52,724 nt of DNA from Propionispira arboris (GTDB lineage: Bacteria > Bacillota > Negativicutes > Selenomonadales > Selenomonadaceae): NCBI RefSeq assembly GCF_900109225.1, contig NZ_FNZK01000027.1:1-52724 (forward strand), given 5' to 3'. This document shows positions 164 through 52,412 of the stretch, piece by piece. The stretch's first letter is position 1, and the number at the start of each line of letters is the position of its first letter. Under the pieces are notes generated by a model. It searched no databases and had not been told where the DNA came from. It saw nothing but the letters and a program-made list of their open reading frames with translations. The translations under genes and the position numbers were made by a program.

Positions 164-281
164 CCTCCAGTCCTCCCCCGTTAGTGTTTTGTCACCTAAT
201 AAGGGTAGGTTATTTGGTTCTTGTTCGCAATGGCTTTTTGCATTTTTGAGGAATTCTGTTTTGCATAAGTGGGGATTTTTA
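164..281. mobile_element. Probable terminal region of the IS21-type element
   Basis: Between the transposase start and the broken HerA frame lies about 120 bp of non-coding DNA with repeated TTTTGCAT words (about 235-243 and 259-266). IS21-type elements carry several short repeats at their ends, so this is likely the outer end of the insertion. The exact junction with host DNA and any target duplication cannot be fixed because the other end is outside the window. Confidence 0.45.
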
Positions 282-1036
282 TTTGCAACTTTGTCCTATT
301 TCATTATGCCATAAACAAGAGACTTGAATCAAAACAAAGTGATAAAAGGTTAAACTTTTTGTTTAATGAAGGTAAAGAAGTCCTTTCATATGATTACATG
401 GATAATCTTAGTAAAAAATTAATGCATTCTAGTAGTCTTCAGCCCCAAAAAGGCATCAAGATTATTGATTTTTCAGAAGTGCCATCTGATGTACTCCCAC
501 TAATGGTGAGCTTGGTAGGACGATTGGTGTTTTCTATTCAACAATGGATTAAAAAAGAAGACAGACATCCAATCGCTTTATTTTGTGATGAAGCACATCT
601 TTATCTTCCAGAGAAGACTGGAACTTCTATTGAAAATGCTGGCTTGGAGAACTTTGAACGTATTGCAAAGGAAGGTAGAAAGTATGGAGTTGGACTTGTT
701 GTAATTAGTCAAAGACCAGCAGAAGTAAATAGAACTATTTTGAGTCAAAGTAATAATTTCATAGCAATGAGATTAACCAACGCTGAAGATCAAGCAGTAA
801 TTAAGAGACTTTTACCAGATAGTCTTGGCGGATTTTCAGAACTTTTACCTATTCTTGATGTTGGGGAGGCATTGGTAGTAGGCGATGCTTCATTACTCCC
901 TAGTAGAATAAAAATAACAAGCCCGAGATGCAAACCTAATAGTGCAACTATAGATTTTTGGGATGAATGGCAGAAAACATCCAATAAAGATGTAATAAGT
1001 GAAGCAATAGAGGCACTTAGAAAGCAATCTCGATAA
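269..1036 (+). pseudogene. HerA-like ATPase, C-terminal fragment truncated by the IS element
   Basis: An open frame of 255 codons encodes the C-terminal half of a HerA/FtsK-type P-loop ATPase. Visible motifs are a Walker B strand (IALFCDEAHLYLP, about residues 101-113), an arginine-rich stretch (RIAKEGRKYGVGLVVISQRP) and the sensor region SQSNNFIAMRLTN. The Walker A nucleotide-binding loop expected in the N-terminal half is missing, and family members are usually about twice this length. The frame is closed by TAA directly before the GTG at 269. There is no ribosome binding site and the IS21-type end abuts it, so it looks inactivated by the insertion. HerA proteins move DNA in repair or act in defence with SIR2 or nuclease partners; no partner remains here. 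Confidence 0.75.
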
Positions 1037-1154: not shown

Positions 1155-1210
1155 AATAACAGCCGTTAATTTATATTCGATTTTATGAGTATAAATTAAC
1201 GGCTGTTATT
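1155..1210. terminator. 21-bp perfect inverted repeat, probable bidirectional terminator
   Basis: Positions 1155-1175 are the exact reverse complement of 1190-1210, with a 14-nt loop. The repeat sits just past the stop codon of the first minus-strand XRE gene and would insulate the array from the HerA fragment. The flanking T/A runs are short, so this could also be a protein-binding palindrome. Confidence 0.55.
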
Positions 1211-1224
1211 ATATATTTACGGTA

Positions 1225-1602
1225 TTACTGGGCGGTGCTTTGTTTTTGAATGCTTAGAAATACATCTTTTAAAGAGTCTATTATTTTTTTTCGGGAACTG
1301 TTGTTTAACTTGTAAGTAATACCATCAAAAACAATTTCTGTGTGGTCAAGAACATTTATAAGGTCTATAGGAGGAAGGTCAGTTTCTAATGTAGGAACTG
1401 TTTCATGCTTGTTTTCGAGAAGATAATCAGTTGTTATGTTAAAAAAATCAGCGAGTTTAGAGGCTTTTTCAAAGCTTAATTTAATAGAATCTGTTTCATA
1501 TTTTACATATGTAGTTCGCGTTATGTGTAAAATATCGGCTAAGTTTTTCTGGGTTAAATTTTTATCAGAACGAAGCTGTCGTAATTTTTCTCCAATACTC
1601 AT
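1225..1602 (-). CDS. XRE-family helix-turn-helix regulator (array member 1)
   Basis: A 125-residue protein starting MSIGEKLRQLRSDKNLTQ. The lambda-repressor-type HTH covers about residues 3-58 (QKNLADILHITRTTYVKYE is the recognition part). The rest is a short hydrophilic tail without the FNHP motif of members 2-5. ATG at 1602 is preferred over the upstream GTG because AAAGGAG lies 8 nt before it. It is the last gene of the leftward array. Three evenly spaced operator-like repeats lie upstream (1636-1706), which suggests autoregulation. Such proteins act as dimeric DNA-binding repressors or activators; the target here is inferred to be its own promoter region. Confidence 0.85.
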   Translation of the reverse strand: MSIGEKLRQLRSDKNLTQKNLADILHITRTTYVKYETDSIKLSFEKASKLADFFNITTDYLLENKHETVPTLETDLPPIDLINVLDHTEIVFDGITYKLNNSSRKKIIDSLKDVFLSIQKQSTAQ

Positions 1603-1635
1603 ATACAGCACTCCTTTTTGTAAAACATAATATAC

Positions 1636-1706
1636 GTGATTTTTAATAACTTTTTATTGACGTGTGACTTAAAATAACTTATAATAAATATGTGATTTAA
1701 AATCAC
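1636..1706. promoter_or_regulatory. Three operator-like repeats at 28-bp spacing with a rightward promoter
   Basis: Three related 15-mers start at 1636 (GTGATTTTTAATAAC), 1664 (GTGACTTAAAATAAC) and 1692 (GTGATTTAAAATCAC), exactly 28 bp apart. The third extends to a perfect 17-bp palindrome, TGTGATTT-A-AAATCACA (1691-1707). On the plus strand TTGACG (1657-1662) and TATAAT (1680-1685) are 17 bp apart, with the middle operator filling the spacer. Binding there should shut this rightward promoter, which points away from the XRE gene. The leftward promoter for the gene is not clear. Confidence 0.7.
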
Positions 1707-1895
1707 ATAGAGAGCCACATAAAAATGAAATTTGAAGCCGAAACATATCATTAAATTTTTATATACAAAAATTTAATGAAGGGTGTCAATCACGGAGGGG
1801 ATAGCAGAGAACTACTAGGGATACTCTTTTTTAGTTTTAGAATAACTGTTCAATAAGAAATTTACGTTTTGAAGATAATAAAAGATTTATTCATC

Positions 1896-2004
1896 AATTA
1901 TTATATCACGAAGCTAACCCGCTGAAAATTATGGTTTGCGATGTTGAAAAGGGAGGAGGACTTAGTTTAGTACTCAAAAAAATGTTGGAAATTAAATTTT
2001 TATT
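1896..2004. repeat. Array element E1: conserved 3'-flank repeat
   Basis: About 109 bp next to the 3' end of the second XRE gene. It closely matches 2534-2642 and 3274-3380. Shared blocks are ATTATTATATCACGAAGC, a centre near GATGTTGAAAAGGG, and AAATTAAATTTTTATTC or similar. Read on the plus strand, E1 and E3 give a similar peptide (LLYHEA..LK..V.D.EKG); E2 is frameshifted and E3 stops early. It may be decayed coding sequence, an RNA, or simply duplicated flank. Confidence 0.6.
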
Positions 2005-2386
2005 CTTGACTATGATCATTTCGAACACTTTCATAGCTACGCAAATAAACAGGTGCAAGTTCAATAGGATATGTTGCTTTATCATGTTTATATTTGTCAA
2101 TTAAATCTTGAGAGGTAGTAGGGTGATTGAAAAAAGCTTCTTCTGCTGGGGGGAGAAATTCTTCATACTCTGGGTCATTAGAACGTCCGGTCAGATAATC
2201 TAATGAAACACAAAAAAAGTTAGCCATTTTTAATAATGTATGAAAAGACGGTAAACTAGCGGATTTCTCAAATTGATTTATGGCAGATTTTGTTTTAAAT
2301 CCTAATATAGATGCTAATTCAGACATAGAAAGATTATGCTTGCTTCTTAGGTCATGCAAAATGTTAGCAAAGTTATTATTATTCAA
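2000..2386 (-). CDS. XRE-family regulator with FNHP-type C-terminus (array member 2)
   Basis: About 128 residues. The HTH spans roughly residues 5-62 (MSELASILGFKTKSAINQFE) and is followed by LDYLTGRSNDPEY and a conserved tail: AEEAFFNHPTTSQDLIDKYK, then PIELAPVYLRSYE. The start is uncertain. TTG at 2386 follows AAGGAGG, with a long 13-nt gap, and the frame stays open to 2416, but that longer start would lie inside the operator. The tail is nearly the same in members 3 and 4 and more diverged in member 5, while the HTH differs. It probably binds the GTACAC-N5-GTGTAC sites just upstream. Confidence 0.85.
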   Translation of the reverse strand: MNNNNFANILHDLRSKHNLSMSELASILGFKTKSAINQFEKSASLPSFHTLLKMANFFCVSLDYLTGRSNDPEYEEFLPPAEEAFFNHPTTSQDLIDKYKHDKATYPIELAPVYLRSYESVRNDHSQE

Positions 2387-2404
2387 AATATAAAATAAAC
2401 CTCC

Positions 2405-2463
2405 TTGACGGTACACCTTAAGTGTACTATAATCTGAATTATAAAAGTAAACTTACAGTGTAC
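2405..2463. promoter_or_regulatory. Rightward promoter with palindromic operator in its spacer, plus a second site
   Basis: On the plus strand TTGACG (2405-2410) and TATAAT (2428-2433) frame a 17-bp spacer that is exactly the inverted repeat GTACAC-CTTAA-GTGTAC (2411-2427). A related site, GTAAAC-TTACA-GTGTAC, lies 36 bp downstream at 2447-2463. The promoter points away from the XRE gene at 2386. Its -35 box overlaps that gene's ribosome binding site, so transcription in the two directions is likely mutually exclusive. Confidence 0.7.
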
Positions 2464-2533
2464 TTTTGGGCGAATGAAAATATAGTATATTTTGAGGTAT
2501 TACAACAAATTATGGATAGCAATATATGAACCA

Positions 2534-2642
2534 TATTATTATATCATGAAGCTAAAACTGTGAAAATATGGATTTAGATGTTGAACGGGGAAGGGGGCTT
2601 ATTTTAACAATCAAAAATGTGGGAAATTAAATTTTTATTCGT
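2534..2642. repeat. Array element E2: conserved 3'-flank repeat
   Basis: Second copy of the element described at 1896-2004, ending at the 3' end of the third XRE gene. On the plus strand it reads LLYHEAKTVKI before a frameshift and stop, so any coding content is broken here. Confidence 0.6.
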
Positions 2643-3018
2643 GACTATGTTCATCTCGAGTAGCTTCATAGTCACGTAAAAAGACAGGTGCAAGTTCAAT
2701 TGGATGTGTTGCTTTGTCCTGTTTATATCTAGCAATTAAATCTTTTGAAGTAGCAGGATGATTAAAAAAAGCTTCTTCTGCGGGTTGTATGTATTTTTCG
2801 TATTGGGGATCGTCCGTGCGACCAAGTAAATAATCGACAGATATACAAAAATAGTTGGCTAGTTTAAATAGCATATCCAGGCTAGGGGATTTGTCAGAAC
2901 GTTCAATATTTCCAAGGGTTCCTTTTTGAATACCGAGGTCATCAGCAACATCTTTTAAGGATAGTTTTGATAATGTTCTAATTTTACGTAGATTGGTTCC
3001 TACCGTGCGTGTATTCAT
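2635..3018 (-). CDS. XRE-family regulator with FNHP-type C-terminus (array member 3)
   Basis: 127 residues, ATG start with AGAGGTG 5 nt upstream. The HTH lies at about residues 6-60 (LSLKDVADDLGIQKGTLGNIE), followed by DYLLGRTDDPQYEKYIQPAEEAFFNHPATSK and PIELAPVFLRDYEATRDEH. The C-terminal half is close to member 2 at both DNA and protein level, whereas the HTH is clearly different. Two GTATTC-N5-GAATAC palindromes lie upstream and are the likely operators. The role of the C-terminal domain is unknown; it could mediate dimerisation or respond to a ligand or protease. Confidence 0.87.
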   Translation of the reverse strand: MNTRTVGTNLRKIRTLSKLSLKDVADDLGIQKGTLGNIERSDKSPSLDMLFKLANYFCISVDYLLGRTDDPQYEKYIQPAEEAFFNHPATSKDLIARYKQDKATHPIELAPVFLRDYEATRDEHSHE

Positions 3019-3052
3019 AAAAACACCTCTTTAAAAGTTTGAAATAAAAGAC

Positions 3053-3112
3053 TTGACGTATTCTAAAAGAATACTTATAATTAAATTAATCAAAGGTATT
3101 CTATCAGAATAC
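3053..3112. promoter_or_regulatory. Rightward promoter with GTATTC-N5-GAATAC operator, two sites
   Basis: TTGACG (3053-3058) and TATAAT (3076-3081) are 17 bp apart on the plus strand. The palindrome GTATTC-TAAAA-GAATAC (3058-3074) sits in the spacer, and a second copy, GTATTC-TATCA-GAATAC, lies 38 bp further on (3096-3112). This is the same design as at 2405-2463 but with different operator bases, matching the different HTH of the adjacent regulator. The rest of the 356-bp gap (3113-3374) holds A/T-rich DNA and element E3. Confidence 0.72.
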
Positions 3113-3273
3113 CTAGAGGGAATAAAATTAATTAAGGTAATAGTTGTTTTCGGATAATTAAAATTGTAATGAAAGGGATAATTAAATAAAGCATATTTAA
3201 TATATGGCTAAATAACCAGTTAAATTCGTTATTTGTAGTGTACGTAAATTAACAATAATTATAGATATCATCA

Positions 3274-3380
3274 AATTATTATATCACGAAGCAAAAACGC
3301 TGAAAATGAAGGTTTTCGATATTGAAAAGGGGGTGGGGCGTTTATTTTAGTAATCAAAAAATCTGGTGAAATTTTCAGTA
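3274..3380. repeat. Array element E3: conserved 3'-flank repeat
   Basis: Third copy of the element at 1896-2004, ending at the 3' end of the fourth XRE gene. On the plus strand an open frame from about 3209 (no ATG) reads into LLYHEAKTLKMKVFDIEKG and then stops, the best-preserved peptide version after E1. Confidence 0.6.
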
Positions 3381-3749
3381 TGGATGATGCTCATCCCGAG
3401 CAGCTTCATGGTCGCGTAAGAAAACAGGCGCAAGTTCAATCGGGTGCGCTGCTTTATCCTGTTTATATTTATCAATTAAATTTTTTGAAGTAGCTGGATG
3501 ATTAAAAAACGCTTCTTCTGCGAGGTGTAGATATTTTTCGTATTCAGGAATATCAGATCGTCCAACTAAATAATCTAAAGAGCAGCAAAAATAATTCGCT
3601 AAAGTCACAAGCTTTTCTAATGTTGGGTTAGATGGGGCATTTTCATATGAAAAGACCATTCGTCGACTAATGCCAAGTTTTTGATAATTTTCCGCCGAAA
3701 GGTTATGTAGAGAACGTAATAATTTAAATCTATTTGCAAATGTAGTCAA
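3375..3749 (-). CDS. XRE-family regulator with FNHP-type C-terminus (array member 4)
   Basis: 124 residues from a TTG start at 3749, preceded by AAAGGTCGGG. The N-terminal HTH is at about residues 4-58 (LSAENYQKLGISRRMVFSYE), then LDYLVGRSDIPEYEKYLHLAEEAFFNHPATSK and PIELAPVFLRDHEAARDEH. Only about 50 bp separate it from the upstream minus-strand XRE gene ending at 3799, and no palindromic promoter lies between them, so the two are probably one transcript. Function beyond DNA binding is not known. Confidence 0.85.
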   Translation of the reverse strand: MTTFANRFKLLRSLHNLSAENYQKLGISRRMVFSYENAPSNPTLEKLVTLANYFCCSLDYLVGRSDIPEYEKYLHLAEEAFFNHPATSKNLIDKYKQDKAAHPIELAPVFLRDHEAARDEHHPY

Positions 3750-3798
3750 ATCAATCCCGACCTTTCATAAAATTTGCAATAGCCAATATAGACATAAT

Positions 3799-4197
3799 TT
3801 ATGCCTGTGGTTGTATGTGATTATCACGCATAAATTCAATTTTTCTTAAAGATACAGGTGCAAGGGAAATAGGCTCAATGATTTTTTCATCTTGATACAT
3901 TTTAATAAAATCTGGAGTTGTGTCAAGATGATTAAAAAACTTATTCTCTGCCTGTGGTAAATAGTCCATCCAAGATGGATTGTCAGAACGACCAATAAGA
4001 TAATCCATGGAACAACAAAAATAGTTAGATATTTTTATTAAAACTTCGACTGATGGTAAAGTAACTTGATTTTCAAAATTAAAAATCATACTTTTTGATA
4101 CATTTATGTTTCTAGAAAATTTAGAGAGCGAAAGTTGATGCAAATTACGTAAGGTTTGTAATCTATCAGAAAATAGGACAGGAAAAGTATTTTTCAT
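3799..4197 (-). CDS. XRE-family regulator, diverged FNHP-type tail (array member 5)
   Basis: 132 residues, ATG preceded by AGGAGG. The HTH occupies about residues 9-65 (LSLSKFSRNINVSKSMIFNFE), then MDYLIGRSDNPSW and a more diverged tail (AENKFFNHLDTTPDFIKMYQ, PISLAPVSLRKIE). It is the first gene of a probable two-gene leftward operon with the gene at 3375-3749. Two CGTTCTT-N4-AAGAACG palindromes lie immediately upstream and are its likely operators. Confidence 0.86.
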   Translation of the reverse strand: MKNTFPVLFSDRLQTLRNLHQLSLSKFSRNINVSKSMIFNFENQVTLPSVEVLIKISNYFCCSMDYLIGRSDNPSWMDYLPQAENKFFNHLDTTPDFIKMYQDEKIIEPISLAPVSLRKIEFMRDNHIQPQA

Positions 4198-4225
4198 AAA
4201 AACCTCCTAAAATGTAAAAAGTAAC

Positions 4226-4287
4226 TTGACGTTCTTAAATAAGAACGATATAATAAAGAAAAAGGAAAACGTTCTTATTTAAGAACG
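4226..4287. promoter_or_regulatory. Rightward promoter with CGTTCTT-N4-AAGAACG operator, two sites
   Basis: TTGACG (4226-4231) and TATAAT (4249-4254) are 17 bp apart on the plus strand. Palindrome CGTTCTT-AAAT-AAGAACG (4230-4247) fills the spacer. A second copy at 4270-4287 (CGTTCTT-ATTT-AAGAACG) is its exact reverse complement, 40 bp on. This is the fourth instance of the same promoter-operator design in the array. The rightward transcript would run into the 3' end of the XRE gene at 4409. Confidence 0.73.
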
Positions 4288-4408
4288 AAAAACTAAAAAA
4301 ATACAAGAAAAGAAATTAAGTCTCCATAAACTAGATAAAAGGGCATAAGGTATGAAAATTATTTGCATAAATTTATTATACCATGGCATAAGAGAACTCG
4401 ATTATGTT

Positions 4409-4627
4409 TTATCTTCGTTCTTTAATATCGCTTCTACCAACGAGATAATCAAGCGATACATCAAAATAATCAGCAAGTGTGACGAGATTTGTTGCCATTG
4501 GGATTACTTTGCCGTATTCATAGGATTGATAAACACGTTCTGCAATAGAAGTGTCATTAGAAATTTGTTTTTGTGTTACTTTATGAAGTTTTCGTAATTC
4601 CTTTAATCGTTCAGCGAATTTATTCAT
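4409..4627 (-). CDS. Short XRE-family regulator (array member 6)
   Basis: 72 residues, essentially a bare HTH domain: MNKFAERLKELRKLHKVTQK, then QISNDTSIAERVYQSYEYGK and DYLVGRSDIKERR. It lacks the FNHP tail seen in members 2-5, stopping right after the DYLVGRSD motif. ATG at 4627 is chosen because CAGGAG lies 7 nt upstream; the frame is open further. It follows the gene at 4668-4970 closely and is likely cotranscribed with it. Confidence 0.82.
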   Translation of the reverse strand: MNKFAERLKELRKLHKVTQKQISNDTSIAERVYQSYEYGKVIPMATNLVTLADYFDVSLDYLVGRSDIKERR

Positions 4628-4667
4628 AGATAATCTCCTGAATTTTATTATCATTTCAAAAGATGGT

Positions 4668-4970
4668 TCATTTTAGCGATTTTAAAAACATGGTCATTAA
4701 ATCACGTTGTTCTATTGTTAGGTTTTTACTGGCATCAAGCAGCGCTTTTAAGTTTGCTTCCAGTTCGGTTTCATCTTCCTGAAAGAAATCCGTGAGGGAA
4801 ATATCCAGCAGGGTGCAGATTGCATCCAATGTTTCTAATGAACATTTCTTGTGATTGGTTTCTATGCCAGATATAAAGCTTTGCGTTACGCCAAGCTTTT
4901 GTGCAAGGTTGGTCGATGTTATGTTTTTTGCTTTCCGTAGTTGTCGAATTCTTTCACCAACATTAATCAT
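4668..4970 (-). CDS. XRE-family regulator (array member 7)
   Basis: 100 residues. The HTH is at residues 3-58 (NLAQKLGVTQSFISGIETNHKK), followed by LDISLTDFFQEDE and a short helical tail ending LMTMFLKSLK. GGAGG lies 10 nt before the ATG. It is first in a leftward pair with member 6 and divergent from the XRE gene at 5143. The tail resembles common SinR/ImmR-like regulators rather than the FNHP group. Confidence 0.85.
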   Translation of the reverse strand: MINVGERIRQLRKAKNITSTNLAQKLGVTQSFISGIETNHKKCSLETLDAICTLLDISLTDFFQEDETELEANLKALLDASKNLTIEQRDLMTMFLKSLK

Positions 4971-4992
4971 AATATAAGATCCTCCGTTAATA

Positions 4993-5108
4993 ACCTGCAG
5001 GTAATAATTCCATTATAACTCGATATAGGAATAGATAAAATAATATTTTTTAAATATTACCTATAGAATATAAAGCGTGTTGAAATAATAACTTATAGGT
5101 GATAAGAT
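4993..5108. promoter_or_regulatory. Divergent control region between XRE genes 7 and 8
   Basis: It holds the palindrome ACCTGCAGGT (4993-5002), close to the start of the leftward gene. Opposed half-sites TTACCTATA (5057-5065) and TATAGGTGA (5094-5102) follow. A good rightward promoter is TTGAAA (5080-5085), 17 bp, TAAGAT (5103-5108), which overlaps the second half-site and would drive the XRE gene at 5143 and perhaps the PTS operon behind it. Confidence 0.55.
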
Positions 5109-5142
5109 AAAGGGAAACTAAAACACAGAGGTGATAAAAGTG

Positions 5143-5382
5143 ATGCAGGAACTTGTAAGCCGGATAAAAAAAGAACGTATTCAGCAAAAAGTTACGATGG
5201 AAGAATTGTCTTTGAAAAGCGGGGTCAGTCAAAAACACATCAGTAATATCGAAAATGGGAAAGCTGTGCCGACGGTTGAGACTTTGGAAAAGCTTACTCA
5301 GGTTTTGGGCTTTGACATTACTTTGCATTTGAAAGTTCACAAAGCTGCTAAGGGAAAAAAAACGAAACGTGGCGGAGGGTAG
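5143..5382 (+). CDS. XRE-family regulator beside the PTS operon (array member 8)
   Basis: 79 residues. The HTH MEELSLKSGVSQKHISNIENGKAVPTVETLEKL is followed by an F-x-ITLHLKV strand and a basic KGKKTKRGGG end. ATG at 5143 fits GAGGTG 9 nt upstream; an in-frame GTG at 5131 overlaps that site. It is the only plus-strand member of the array and lies 68 bp before the EIIA gene, so it may control the ascorbate-type PTS operon. That link is positional only. Confidence 0.82.
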   Translation: MQELVSRIKKERIQQKVTMEELSLKSGVSQKHISNIENGKAVPTVETLEKLTQVLGFDITLHLKVHKAAKGKKTKRGGG

Positions 5383-5450: not shown

Positions 5451-5894
5451 ATGGCATTGGATGAGATTTTGTTTGACGAAAAGAATACGAGACTGCAAAT
5501 TGAAGCGGAGTCTTGGGAAGCAGCGGTGGAGATTGGCGGGGAACTGTTAGTTGAACAGGGGTGTGTAGAAGATTCATATATTAACGGAATGCTTCAAAAG
5601 GTCAACAAACATCGGATGGATGTTGTCATTGCGGACGGGATTGCAATCCCGCATACAAGATATGAAGATGGAGCGTTTCGGGTGGGTGTGAGTTTAGTTA
5701 CATTGAAAACACCGTTGTCTTTTGCCGAATCAGAAGAAAAGGTCAAGGTGGTGCTTTGTTTTTCGGCAATGAATATCCAGGATTATTGGCATATGGTGTC
5801 GTTTGCCCTTGATCTAATCGAGTACGATGTGCTTGATCAGCTGGCAGAGGCAAAGACGCTGGAGGAGGTGAGGTCCGTCATGGCTTTGTGCTGA
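5451..5894 (+). CDS. PTS EIIA component, ascorbate/mannitol-fructose superfamily (first copy)
   Basis: 147 residues of the PTS_EIIA_2 fold. The phospho-accepting histidine is H68 in GIAIPHTR. EIIA takes phosphate from HPr in the cytosol and passes it to EIIB. The ATG at 5451 lies only a few bases after AAGGGG; TTG at 5457, two codons on, has better spacing and may be the real start. A second EIIA follows at 5921, so this operon has two. The two proteins keep the same framework (Wexx, GGxLLVxxxxVExSY) and look like a tandem duplication. Confidence 0.88.
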   Translation: MALDEILFDEKNTRLQIEAESWEAAVEIGGELLVEQGCVEDSYINGMLQKVNKHRMDVVIADGIAIPHTRYEDGAFRVGVSLVTLKTPLSFAESEEKVKVVLCFSAMNIQDYWHMVSFALDLIEYDVLDQLAEAKTLEEVRSVMALC

Positions 5895-51538: not shown

Positions 51539-51671
51539 GCTTTTTTATTTTAAAATGAAAATCAAATGTAAAACAAAAGGAAATCCAATAGTATCCTTGT
51601 AATATAAGACTTGTATCGTAAATGAGTTACACCATACGGATGTAAAATTTAGTTTAGGAGATGGTTTATTG

Positions 51672-52412
51672 ATGAAAAAAATATCGATGTTGATTGTTGG
51701 TATGTTTATGTTTACATTATCAGCAGCAAGTGTGAGTGCCGCAATACCTGAAACGGAGACAATCCCACCAGCTACTCAGCAGAAACAGCATGAAGATCAA
51801 ATCAGGCAGACTCCAACTCAAACAGGCCAACAGGGTGAAGATCAGTTAAATCAGGGTAAAGCGGATTCAACGAAACAAGATCAGTTAAATCCAGATAAAA
51901 CAGATCCAATGAAACAAGATACACTAAATCAGGGTAAAGCGGATTCAACGAAACAAGATCAGTTAAATCCAGATAAAACAGATCCAATGAAACAGGATAC
52001 GCTAAATCAGGGTAAAGCAGATCCAACGAAACAAGATCAGTTAAATCCAGATAAAACAGATCCAATGAAACAGGATACGTTAAATCAGGGTAAAGCGGAT
52101 CCGATGAAACAAGATACATTAAATCAAGATAAAAAAGACCAAACGAAACAAGATAGCAAATTCATTAAAAAAGACACAAAAAAACAGGATCAGGCTAAAT
52201 TAACTAAAAAAGACACAGTGAAACAAGATCAGATAAAATTAAATAAAGAAGATCAAAAGAAACAGGATCAACTGAAATCAAATAAAGAAGATCAAACGAC
52301 ACAAGGTTCACTTATATCAGGAAAAACAGATCCAACAAAACAGGAACAATTGAAACCCGCTCAAGAAAATCAACAGTTACAGAAAGATAATTCTTCACAA
52401 ATCGTATTTTAA
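51672..52412 (+). CDS. Secreted protein of 13-residue KQD repeats
   Basis: 246 residues from ATG 51672 (GGAGA upstream; TTG at 51669 is in frame). A signal peptide (KKISMLIVGMFMFTLSAASVSAA) is followed by about 14 tandem units of 13 residues such as DQLNPDKTDPMKQ and DTLNQGKADSTKQ, rich in K, Q, D and N with no cysteine. Early units are nearly alike at DNA level; later ones drift into Lys-rich forms. No anchor motif is seen. It may be an extracellular or cell-wall-associated disordered polymer-like protein. Function is unknown. Confidence 0.82.
   Translation: MKKISMLIVGMFMFTLSAASVSAAIPETETIPPATQQKQHEDQIRQTPTQTGQQGEDQLNQGKADSTKQDQLNPDKTDPMKQDTLNQGKADSTKQDQLNPDKTDPMKQDTLNQGKADPTKQDQLNPDKTDPMKQDTLNQGKADPMKQDTLNQDKKDQTKQDSKFIKKDTKKQDQAKLTKKDTVKQDQIKLNKEDQKKQDQLKSNKEDQTTQGSLISGKTDPTKQEQLKPAQENQQLQKDNSSQIVF
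51840..52382 (+). repeat. Tandem 39-bp repeats in the secreted protein gene
   Basis: Fourteen units of 39 bp (one of 36) code for the 13-residue repeat. Units 1-7 alternate between two sequence types, giving a higher-order 78-bp period; units 8-14 are diverged. The near identity of the early units suggests recent expansion by slippage or unequal crossing over. Confidence 0.85.

Follow-up and report, generated by a model that had tools for sequence, protein, structure and literature searches.

Small XRE regulator genes with predicted face-to-face promoters and gene-specific operators form an array in Propionispira arboris

What arrangement places eight small regulators of one family side by side in a bacterial genome, and how might they be controlled? 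The question is raised by an array of XRE genes (X1-X8, numbered left to right; Table 1) on the 52.7-kb contig of Propionispira arboris analysed here (the window; contig C9 of the 4.26-Mb genome, G000). It is flanked on one side by an open reading frame (ORF) for a HerA-like ATPase and on the other by a phosphotransferase system (PTS) operon. Overlapping frames aside, the ORF list gives these eight genes as the principal ones of the array; seven run leftward and one is divergent, and every one of the eight proteins matches the helix-turn-helix (HTH) profile HTH_3, in agreement with an initial annotation of this DNA. Our reading, to which we give a probability of roughly 0.55, is that the array is a stack of mostly insulated, immunity-type switch cassettes with face-to-face promoters, in the layout of phages P2 and 186 and without lytic genes. 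Comparisons are made chiefly with Propionispira raffinosivorans (G001) and Megamonas sp. UBA1796 (G016, a metagenome-assembled genome).

The outward promoter P+ (TTGACG-N17-TATAAT) is found four times in the window against 0.05 expected, and none of 100 shuffles reaches four. Each copy lies directly upstream of an XRE gene (X1, X2, X3 or X5) on the plus strand and faces away from it, at the four places where it had been annotated and nowhere else in the window. The whole genome holds 11 such sites, four of them in the array, against three in the reversed control. The frame is present for four of the eight genes only: X4 and X6 begin 49 and 40 bp past the previous stop codon and are frameless, and X7 and X8 are divergent, which disposes of the proposal that each of the eight regulators has an operator in an identical promoter. 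On its sequence, the array is made up of three clear cases (X2, X3 and X5), one variant (X1), two decayed units (X4 and X6) and one ordinary divergent pair (X7/X8), X8 being apparently the first gene of the PTS operon.

The P+ spacers of X2, X3 and X5 contain inverted repeats with longest exact arms of 6, 7 and 6, equalled by 793, 251 and 758 of 50,000 random 19-mers of the array (1.6%, 0.5% and 1.5%); the other seven genomic P+ sites have spacer arms of 4 or less. A second copy of each dyad (O2), overlooked in the initial annotation, follows this predicted operator (O1) at an offset of 36-40 bp. The dyad that had been assigned to the X1 spacer, GTGACTTAAAATAAC, is not above chance: its exact arm measures 3, a value matched by 29,045 of 50,000 random 19-mers. 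(A blunt earlier score that counted scattered pairs, reached by 12,541, 232, 865 and 396 of 20,000 shuffles for X1, X2, X3 and X5, was replaced by the exact-arm count.) Exact dyads in the genome number two for X3, two for X5 and one for X2, the latter with its one-mismatch copy, and all lie within the array; two-mismatch sites of the X5 dyad elsewhere in the genome number 14 against 47 in the control. The private operators and orthogonal modules that had been proposed are supported for X2, X3 and X5, orthogonality at the level of sequence only, and privacy breaks down for X1 (see below). Because the annotated GTG start codon of X2 at 2416 falls inside its operator, the start is likely the TTG near 2386.

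A second constant promoter (P-), also overlooked, faces P+ and is oriented towards the regulator gene; its consensus is TTYTCA-N8-GCTYCRTG-N-TATAAT. Upstream of X1, X2 and X3 the minus strand carries it within the conserved intergenic block repeated in the array, as TTTTCA-N17-TATAAT with the extended -10 element GCTTCRTGATATAAT. A scan of 189 genomes of the order (Selenomonadales, inferred from named relatives) returned eight exact copies, four in G000 and two each in G001 and G016, all eight before XRE units. The reversed pattern gave one site at up to one mismatch in the 189 genomes and six at up to three mismatches in G000, G001 and G016. Seven copies carry one mismatch, one of them before the X3-like unit of G001 and six in other genomes, and near those six our own reading found no XRE-like ORF of at least 60 aa. 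A longer form of the pattern proved overly specific, with matches in 2 of 151 genomes.

A hand-picked survey of promoters and operators covered 16 genes. Promoter convergence was assessed in 14 units from the three genomes, picked because both promoters could be placed; three of them, with no start codon located, contribute promoter distances only. Start points estimated from the consensus sequences converge in these units over about 90-342 bp. Their P- is exact in eight, has one, two and three mismatches in one unit each, and shows a variant core in three. Taken together, promoters, operators, orientation and conservation make the cassette architecture well supported at the sequence level.

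Orthologues in P. raffinosivorans and Megamonas keep promoter, operators and gene: the X3 protein is 91% identical in P. raffinosivorans, the X1 protein 67% identical in G016, and the Megamonas X5 has the same operator as the window. Between window and Megamonas the X5 leader is 57%, the O2-to-P+ block 86% and the coding sequence 77% identical, and for X1 the values are 37%, 77% and 73%; within the genus, X3 of P. raffinosivorans gives 81%, 89% and 93%. The block is thus conserved above the gene in both cross-genus pairs and not in the within-genus pair; the cross-genus pattern suggests that operators and P+ are under selection. Operator and recognition helix are kept together in X3 of G001, X5 and X1 of G016, the X1 paralogue on contig C28 of G000, and X6 of G001 and G016. 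The suggestion that operators change with the HTH domain inside a constant frame is supported for X2, X3 and X5, and by the orthologues that keep operator and helix.

In Megamonas the cassette of the X4 orthologue is complete: a new dyad, AGTGCGATGTAACGCACT, occurs twice, and the frame is TTGACA-N17-TATAAT. X6-type operators (ACGMT-N6-AKCGT) occur twice in G001 and twice in G016, one of the latter with a mismatch; none was found near X6 of the window. Since relatives have these elements, the bare X4 and X6 of the window look like losses. Derivation of the array by duplication, as first proposed, is supported by four 258-nt copies (60-77% identical to the reference), by the common intergenic blocks and by a C-terminal part common to X2-X5, a further feature that the initial annotation had passed over. 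This part has no Pfam match and is found in 3 of 60 genomes (G000, G001 and G016), at three loci in a genome contig collection, from two of those species, and in no viral contig.

In the predicted structure of X3 (mean predicted local distance difference test score, pLDDT, 79) the C-terminus is modelled as all-helical with moderate confidence. HTH proteins lead the PDB fold search (phi106 repressor, ImmR, DdrO and SinR), none at E < 0.001, so that the model carries no functional assignment. A profile search with the HTH part puts the Listeria regulator 3op9 first, the phi106 repressor next and ImmR third. The best NCBIfam family is RstR for X1-X7 and couple_hipB for X8; against RstR family NF041951 the eight proteins, at 29.5-62.6 bits, fall short of the curated 80-bit cut-off. 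Among the PHROGs, X1-X7 match best to PHROG 8, a family of phage regulators.

We propose that each complete cassette would work as a two-state switch of four parts. The constant P- would transcribe the regulator gene through its leader, and P+ would fire back at P- from the start-point distance given above. One predicted operator sits between the -35 and -10 elements of P+ with the second beyond it (either side of P+ in X1), and the regulator gene has changed its HTH together with the operators. A regulator bound to its own operators would turn P+ off; with P+ silent, colliding antisense transcription would no longer suppress P-, and regulator expression would sustain itself. Should the regulator fall, P+ would fire and keep P- down. 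Its operator would insulate each cassette from its neighbours, and the cassettes would have multiplied next to sugar-PTS operons. Binding, interference, bistability, insulation and output are what we infer from the architecture.

Several observations weigh against this proposal. The X1 dyad GTGATTTNAAATCAC has three exact sites in the genome, one in the array and two at G000:C28:257611-257682, both of which precede a paralogue 65% identical to X1; its recognition helix is nearly the same, which fits cognate binding by an X1-type helix, yet the operator is shared and its privacy is broken. For X3, seven one-mismatch dyads lie elsewhere in the genome against four in the reversed control, so X3 may have weak distant targets. 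Only the variant P- core CCATG(G/T)TATAAT is present in C36_72, in X5 and in the Megamonas orthologue of X5, the three-mismatch P- of C36_a does not rise above background, and in the units at C18, C28, G001 C1 and G016_72a P+ is present with no recognisable P-. Downstream of P+ there are candidate plus-strand ORFs of 57 aa (X1, 1931-2104) and 81 aa (X5, 4352-4597), antisense to X2 and X6. The window has kept X4 and X6 without the frame, which is thus inessential for gene retention. P+ could be weak or silent, operators lying on the regulator's own transcript could act as a roadblock in plain negative autoregulation, and the start points lie further apart than the 40-60 bp stated for P2-like phages in the passages cited below.

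For X2 and X3 no plus-strand ORF of at least 25 aa starts between P+ and the next gene; ORFs of that size are confined to X1 and X5, where the 57-aa and 81-aa frames are the longer ones. A hidden sense promoter between O1 and O2 was looked for by eye and none was seen. A small protein or RNA encoded by the leader was rejected, as the leader drifts across genera and gave no Rfam match at the gathering score; the X3 leader of G001 has a 40-aa sense-strand ORF, which a 1-nt difference reduces to 24 aa in the window. Megamonas also has a one-mismatch X1-type site at G016 C12:19876, with another XRE gene some 350 bp away.

The statement that no described system resembles the array was too strong, for its layout is that of the face-to-face immunity switch of P2 and 186. 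In P2-like phages, according to passages of one account (PMC7498355), lytic and lysogenic promoters lie face to face with the operators of the immunity repressor over the lytic promoter, and in phage 186 the lytic promoter interferes with the lysogenic one and not vice versa (passages of PMC7498355 and PMC7708051). In the P2/186 pR/pL switch, as in the array, promoters converge and the repressor gene is transcribed across an opposing, operator-bearing promoter (same passages of PMC7498355). By sequence prediction, two convergent promoters, one of which would transcribe the regulator gene across the other, are present in the 14 units; predicted operators lie over the outward promoter in X2, X3, X5 and the X4-, X5- and 72b-like units of G016, those of X1 flanking it. 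The ORF lists contain no Apl/Cox-led lytic or excision operon behind the outward promoter, where opposite-strand XRE genes and two antisense ORFs lie instead, and the rest of the window, by eye from the ORF list, consists of PTS and metabolic genes rather than a P2-like phage. On these two grounds we do not class the array as a P2/186 switch; it differs further in its small HTH_3 regulators, wider promoter spacing and several chromosomal cassettes side by side. Searches of the open-access PMC literature turned up no published account of switches of this type stacked in a chromosome without lytic genes; the parts are known, and the stacking without lytic genes is the aspect that appears new.

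Other known systems share single features. ImmR-type repressors resemble the array proteins in HTH family and size, and so do RstR-type repressors, for which allele-specific operators are known. By our reading of the ORF list no ImmA metalloprotease gene follows a repressor gene in the array, and a metalloprotease-like ORF does follow the X1 homologues at L060 and L063. An outward promoter was found in 24 of 36 XRE loci, some of them mutual duplicates (L057 was left out and L069 had no usable gene). The more usual layout, as we read these loci, has this promoter leading into a divergent XRE-like ORF of 63-89 aa (L063, L075 and L078) or an ORF of 232 aa (L060), whereas in the complete units of the array P+ is faced by P-. 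For a type II toxin-antitoxin system of the HipB kind, the ORF list has no toxin gene beside the XRE genes, with no toxin library search made. In scbA-scbR of Streptomyces coelicolor two protein genes take part, whereas the opposing transcript of the array has no product conserved across genera. Convergent transcription, the feature in common, has been modelled there as the basis of bistability (PMC3134472).

Plain negative autoregulation is the strongest competitor, and we consider it unlikely. The bound regulator would block P+ and also obstruct its own P- transcript like a roadblock, leaving P+ a passive relic without bistability. XRE repressors as a rule autoregulate through operators near their own promoter, and in all 14 units P- is separated from the gene by the P+/operator block, which is thus part of the regulator's transcript. 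Left unexplained are the constancy of P- and the near-consensus -35 and -10 elements of P+, intact at 17-bp spacing across genera despite the drift of the leader.

The neighbourhood suggests a second alternative. Longer stretches were read at ten XRE loci (C9, C35, C36, C18 and C28 of G000; C28, C10 and C1 of G001; C53 and C36 of G016), and further XRE matches, taken in stretches of about 3 kb each, for example L016, L017, L021, L023 and L026 of the P. arboris genome, were left unscored for neighbours. PTS genes lie on the 5'-end side of the XRE genes at 8 of the 10 loci, a raw count without a baseline rate (called by Pfam in six, and in two G001 loci by the same ORFs as at the orthologous locus); by eye, none is present within the 12 kb read at G000 C28 and G001 C1. 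The regulators might then repress a rightward P+ transcript that runs antisense through the next genes into X8 and the PTS operon, the stack forming a multi-input control of sugar uptake, and P+ of the X1-like unit of G016 does aim straight at a PTS IIA gene about 500 bp off. We regard this as quite unlikely: X8 has its own candidate promoter (TTGAAA-N17-TAAGAT at 5080), as does the PTS gene of G016 (TTGGCA-N16-TAAAAT at 3956-3929), transcription from P+ of the inner units would need to pass through several genes, and by eye no PTS gene was seen within the 12 kb read at L087 and L089.

A defence-type gene stands at the far end of five of the eight PTS-side loci, again a raw count without a baseline rate. 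PADLOC identifies HerA in the window, an RdrB-like gene at G001 C28, Cas13a at G016 C53 and restriction-modification at G000 C36; the far-end gene of G001 C10 encodes a SIR2_2 protein by Pfam with no PADLOC match. The 1214-aa Cas13a (L038:7728-11372; PADLOC 2.8e-151) of Megamonas sp. UBA1796 is near the X4-like cassette, and the repeat-rich stretch between them resembles a CRISPR array. In P. raffinosivorans a 925-aa protein with similarity to RdrB of RADAR (L037:6674-12213) stands at the far end of the array, beside a 920-aa protein without Pfam or PADLOC match, and the 838-aa SIR2_2 protein adjoining an XRE stack (L088:6696-9212) has a possible STAND-type NTPase domain, below cut-off.

Since their closest homologues are ImmR- and RstR-like, the cassettes probably descend from repressors of phages or integrative elements. 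Protein matches of X3 comprise 117 phage records, of which none spans 80% of X3, and 35 plasmid records, of which two do; all are below 60% identity, and the matches mostly involve the HTH part. Array DNA has no blastn match in phage or plasmid DNA, and an origin from either by DNA was rejected on that result. Viral contig L126 carries the X3-type dyad twice (1092-1138), one copy in a TTGACG-N17 frame on the minus strand with a poor -10 (TACCTT), near an XRE-like ORF that, of X1-X6, is most similar to X3 (30% over 54 aa); it is a lead towards phage ancestry, short of proof. Paired X5 operators occur in no viral contig, paired X1 operators in two and paired X2 operators in one, the adjoining genes not being repressor-like, and a loosened X4-type pattern in 34, never in a TTGAC-N17-TA frame. 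Two sites of G000 and G001 hold different XRE genes within the same flanks. That the array is merely a set of decayed phage or integrative-element immunity regions gathered at an insertion hotspot, functionless or conferring only superinfection immunity against relatives of the parents, would accord with the PHROG 8 and sub-threshold RstR assignments, the nearest structures (ImmR and the phi106 repressor), the phage and plasmid protein matches, contig L126, the far-end defence genes, the differing XRE genes at orthologous sites and the two decayed units, and is very unlikely given the cross-genus footprints of selection on operators and P+, the absent blastn match, the scarcity of paired operators beside repressor-like genes and the absence of the common C-terminal part from viral contigs.

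If the face-to-face cassettes do work as switches, one bacterium would possess at least four natural switch cassettes, three with their own operators, in a single promoter frame. They would offer a test case for the rise of new DNA-binding specificity in duplicated genes, would supply orthogonal repressor-operator pairs and would be an instance of convergent transcription employed outside a phage. With operator-helix pairs conserved across genera, the claim of specificity is open to a direct in vitro test. A doubtful extension is that the array might be a natural register in which several heritable one-gene switches, insulated from one another, each store their own on/off state by face-to-face promoters and a private operator. 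The switches would have the constant promoter in common and, in X2-X5, the C-terminal part as a common input, each with a separate lock, and would be swapped as units between sites flanked by sugar-PTS operons and defence genes.

Table 1. Coordinates of array genes, promoters, predicted operators and terminator-like hairpin in the window.
Feature	Position	Strand	Description
X1	1225..1602	-	125-aa XRE regulator with phage ImmR-like relatives; HTH_19/HTH_3
X2	2000..2416	-	XRE regulator with C-terminal part common to X2-X5
X3	2635..3018	-	127-aa XRE regulator with C-terminal part common to X2-X5
X4	3375..3749	-	XRE regulator with C-terminal part common to X2-X5; own promoters and operators missing in window
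X5	3799..4197	-	132-aa XRE regulator with C-terminal part common to X2-X5
X6	4409..4627	-	72-aa XRE regulator without C-terminal part; promoters missing in window, intact in G001
X7	4668..4970	-	XRE regulator, divergent partner of X8; kept in L029/L037 and L030/L038
X8	5131..5382	+	83-aa XRE regulator, followed by PTS_EIIA_2 at 5451
P+ of X1	1657..1685	+	TTGACG-N17-TATAAT
P+ of X2	2405..2433	+	TTGACG-N17-TATAAT, operator O1 in spacer
P+ of X3	3053..3081	+	TTGACG-N17-TATAAT, operator O1 in spacer
P+ of X5	4226..4254	+	TTGACG-N17-TATAAT, operator O1 in spacer
P- of X1	1900..1928	-	TTTTCA-N17-TATAAT with GCTTCGTGA
P- of X2	2538..2566	-	
P- of X3	3278..3306	-	
P- of X5, variant core	4375..4386	-	CCATGGTATAAT, common to its Megamonas orthologue
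X1 predicted operator	1692..1706		GTGATTTAAAATCAC; weaker copy GTGATTTTTAATAAC at 1636-1650; both outside spacer, flanking P+
X2 predicted operator O1	2411..2427		GTACAC-N5-GTGTAC; one-mismatch copy O2 at 2447-2463
X3 predicted operator O1	3058..3074		GTATTC-N5-GAATAC
X3 predicted operator O2	3096..3112		exact second copy
X5 predicted operator O1	4230..4247		CGTTCTT-N4-AAGAACG
X5 predicted operator O2	4270..4287		exact second copy
Terminator-like hairpin	1159..1206	found on +	distal end of array; near-perfect inverted repeat

At L087:6191-6957 (G000) and L089:5648-6434 (G001) the flanks and the first XRE gene are the same and the second XRE gene differs, an apparent cassette exchange as judged from the two sequences. 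In PADLOC the HerA ORF of the window (269-1036), near the contig end, is matched to its family profile over the C-terminal part alone, and by eye a transposase-like reading frame is cut at that contig end. Towards the other end of the window, a 247-aa ORF (51669-52412) consists mostly of repeats of a DPMKQDTLNQGKAD-like unit.

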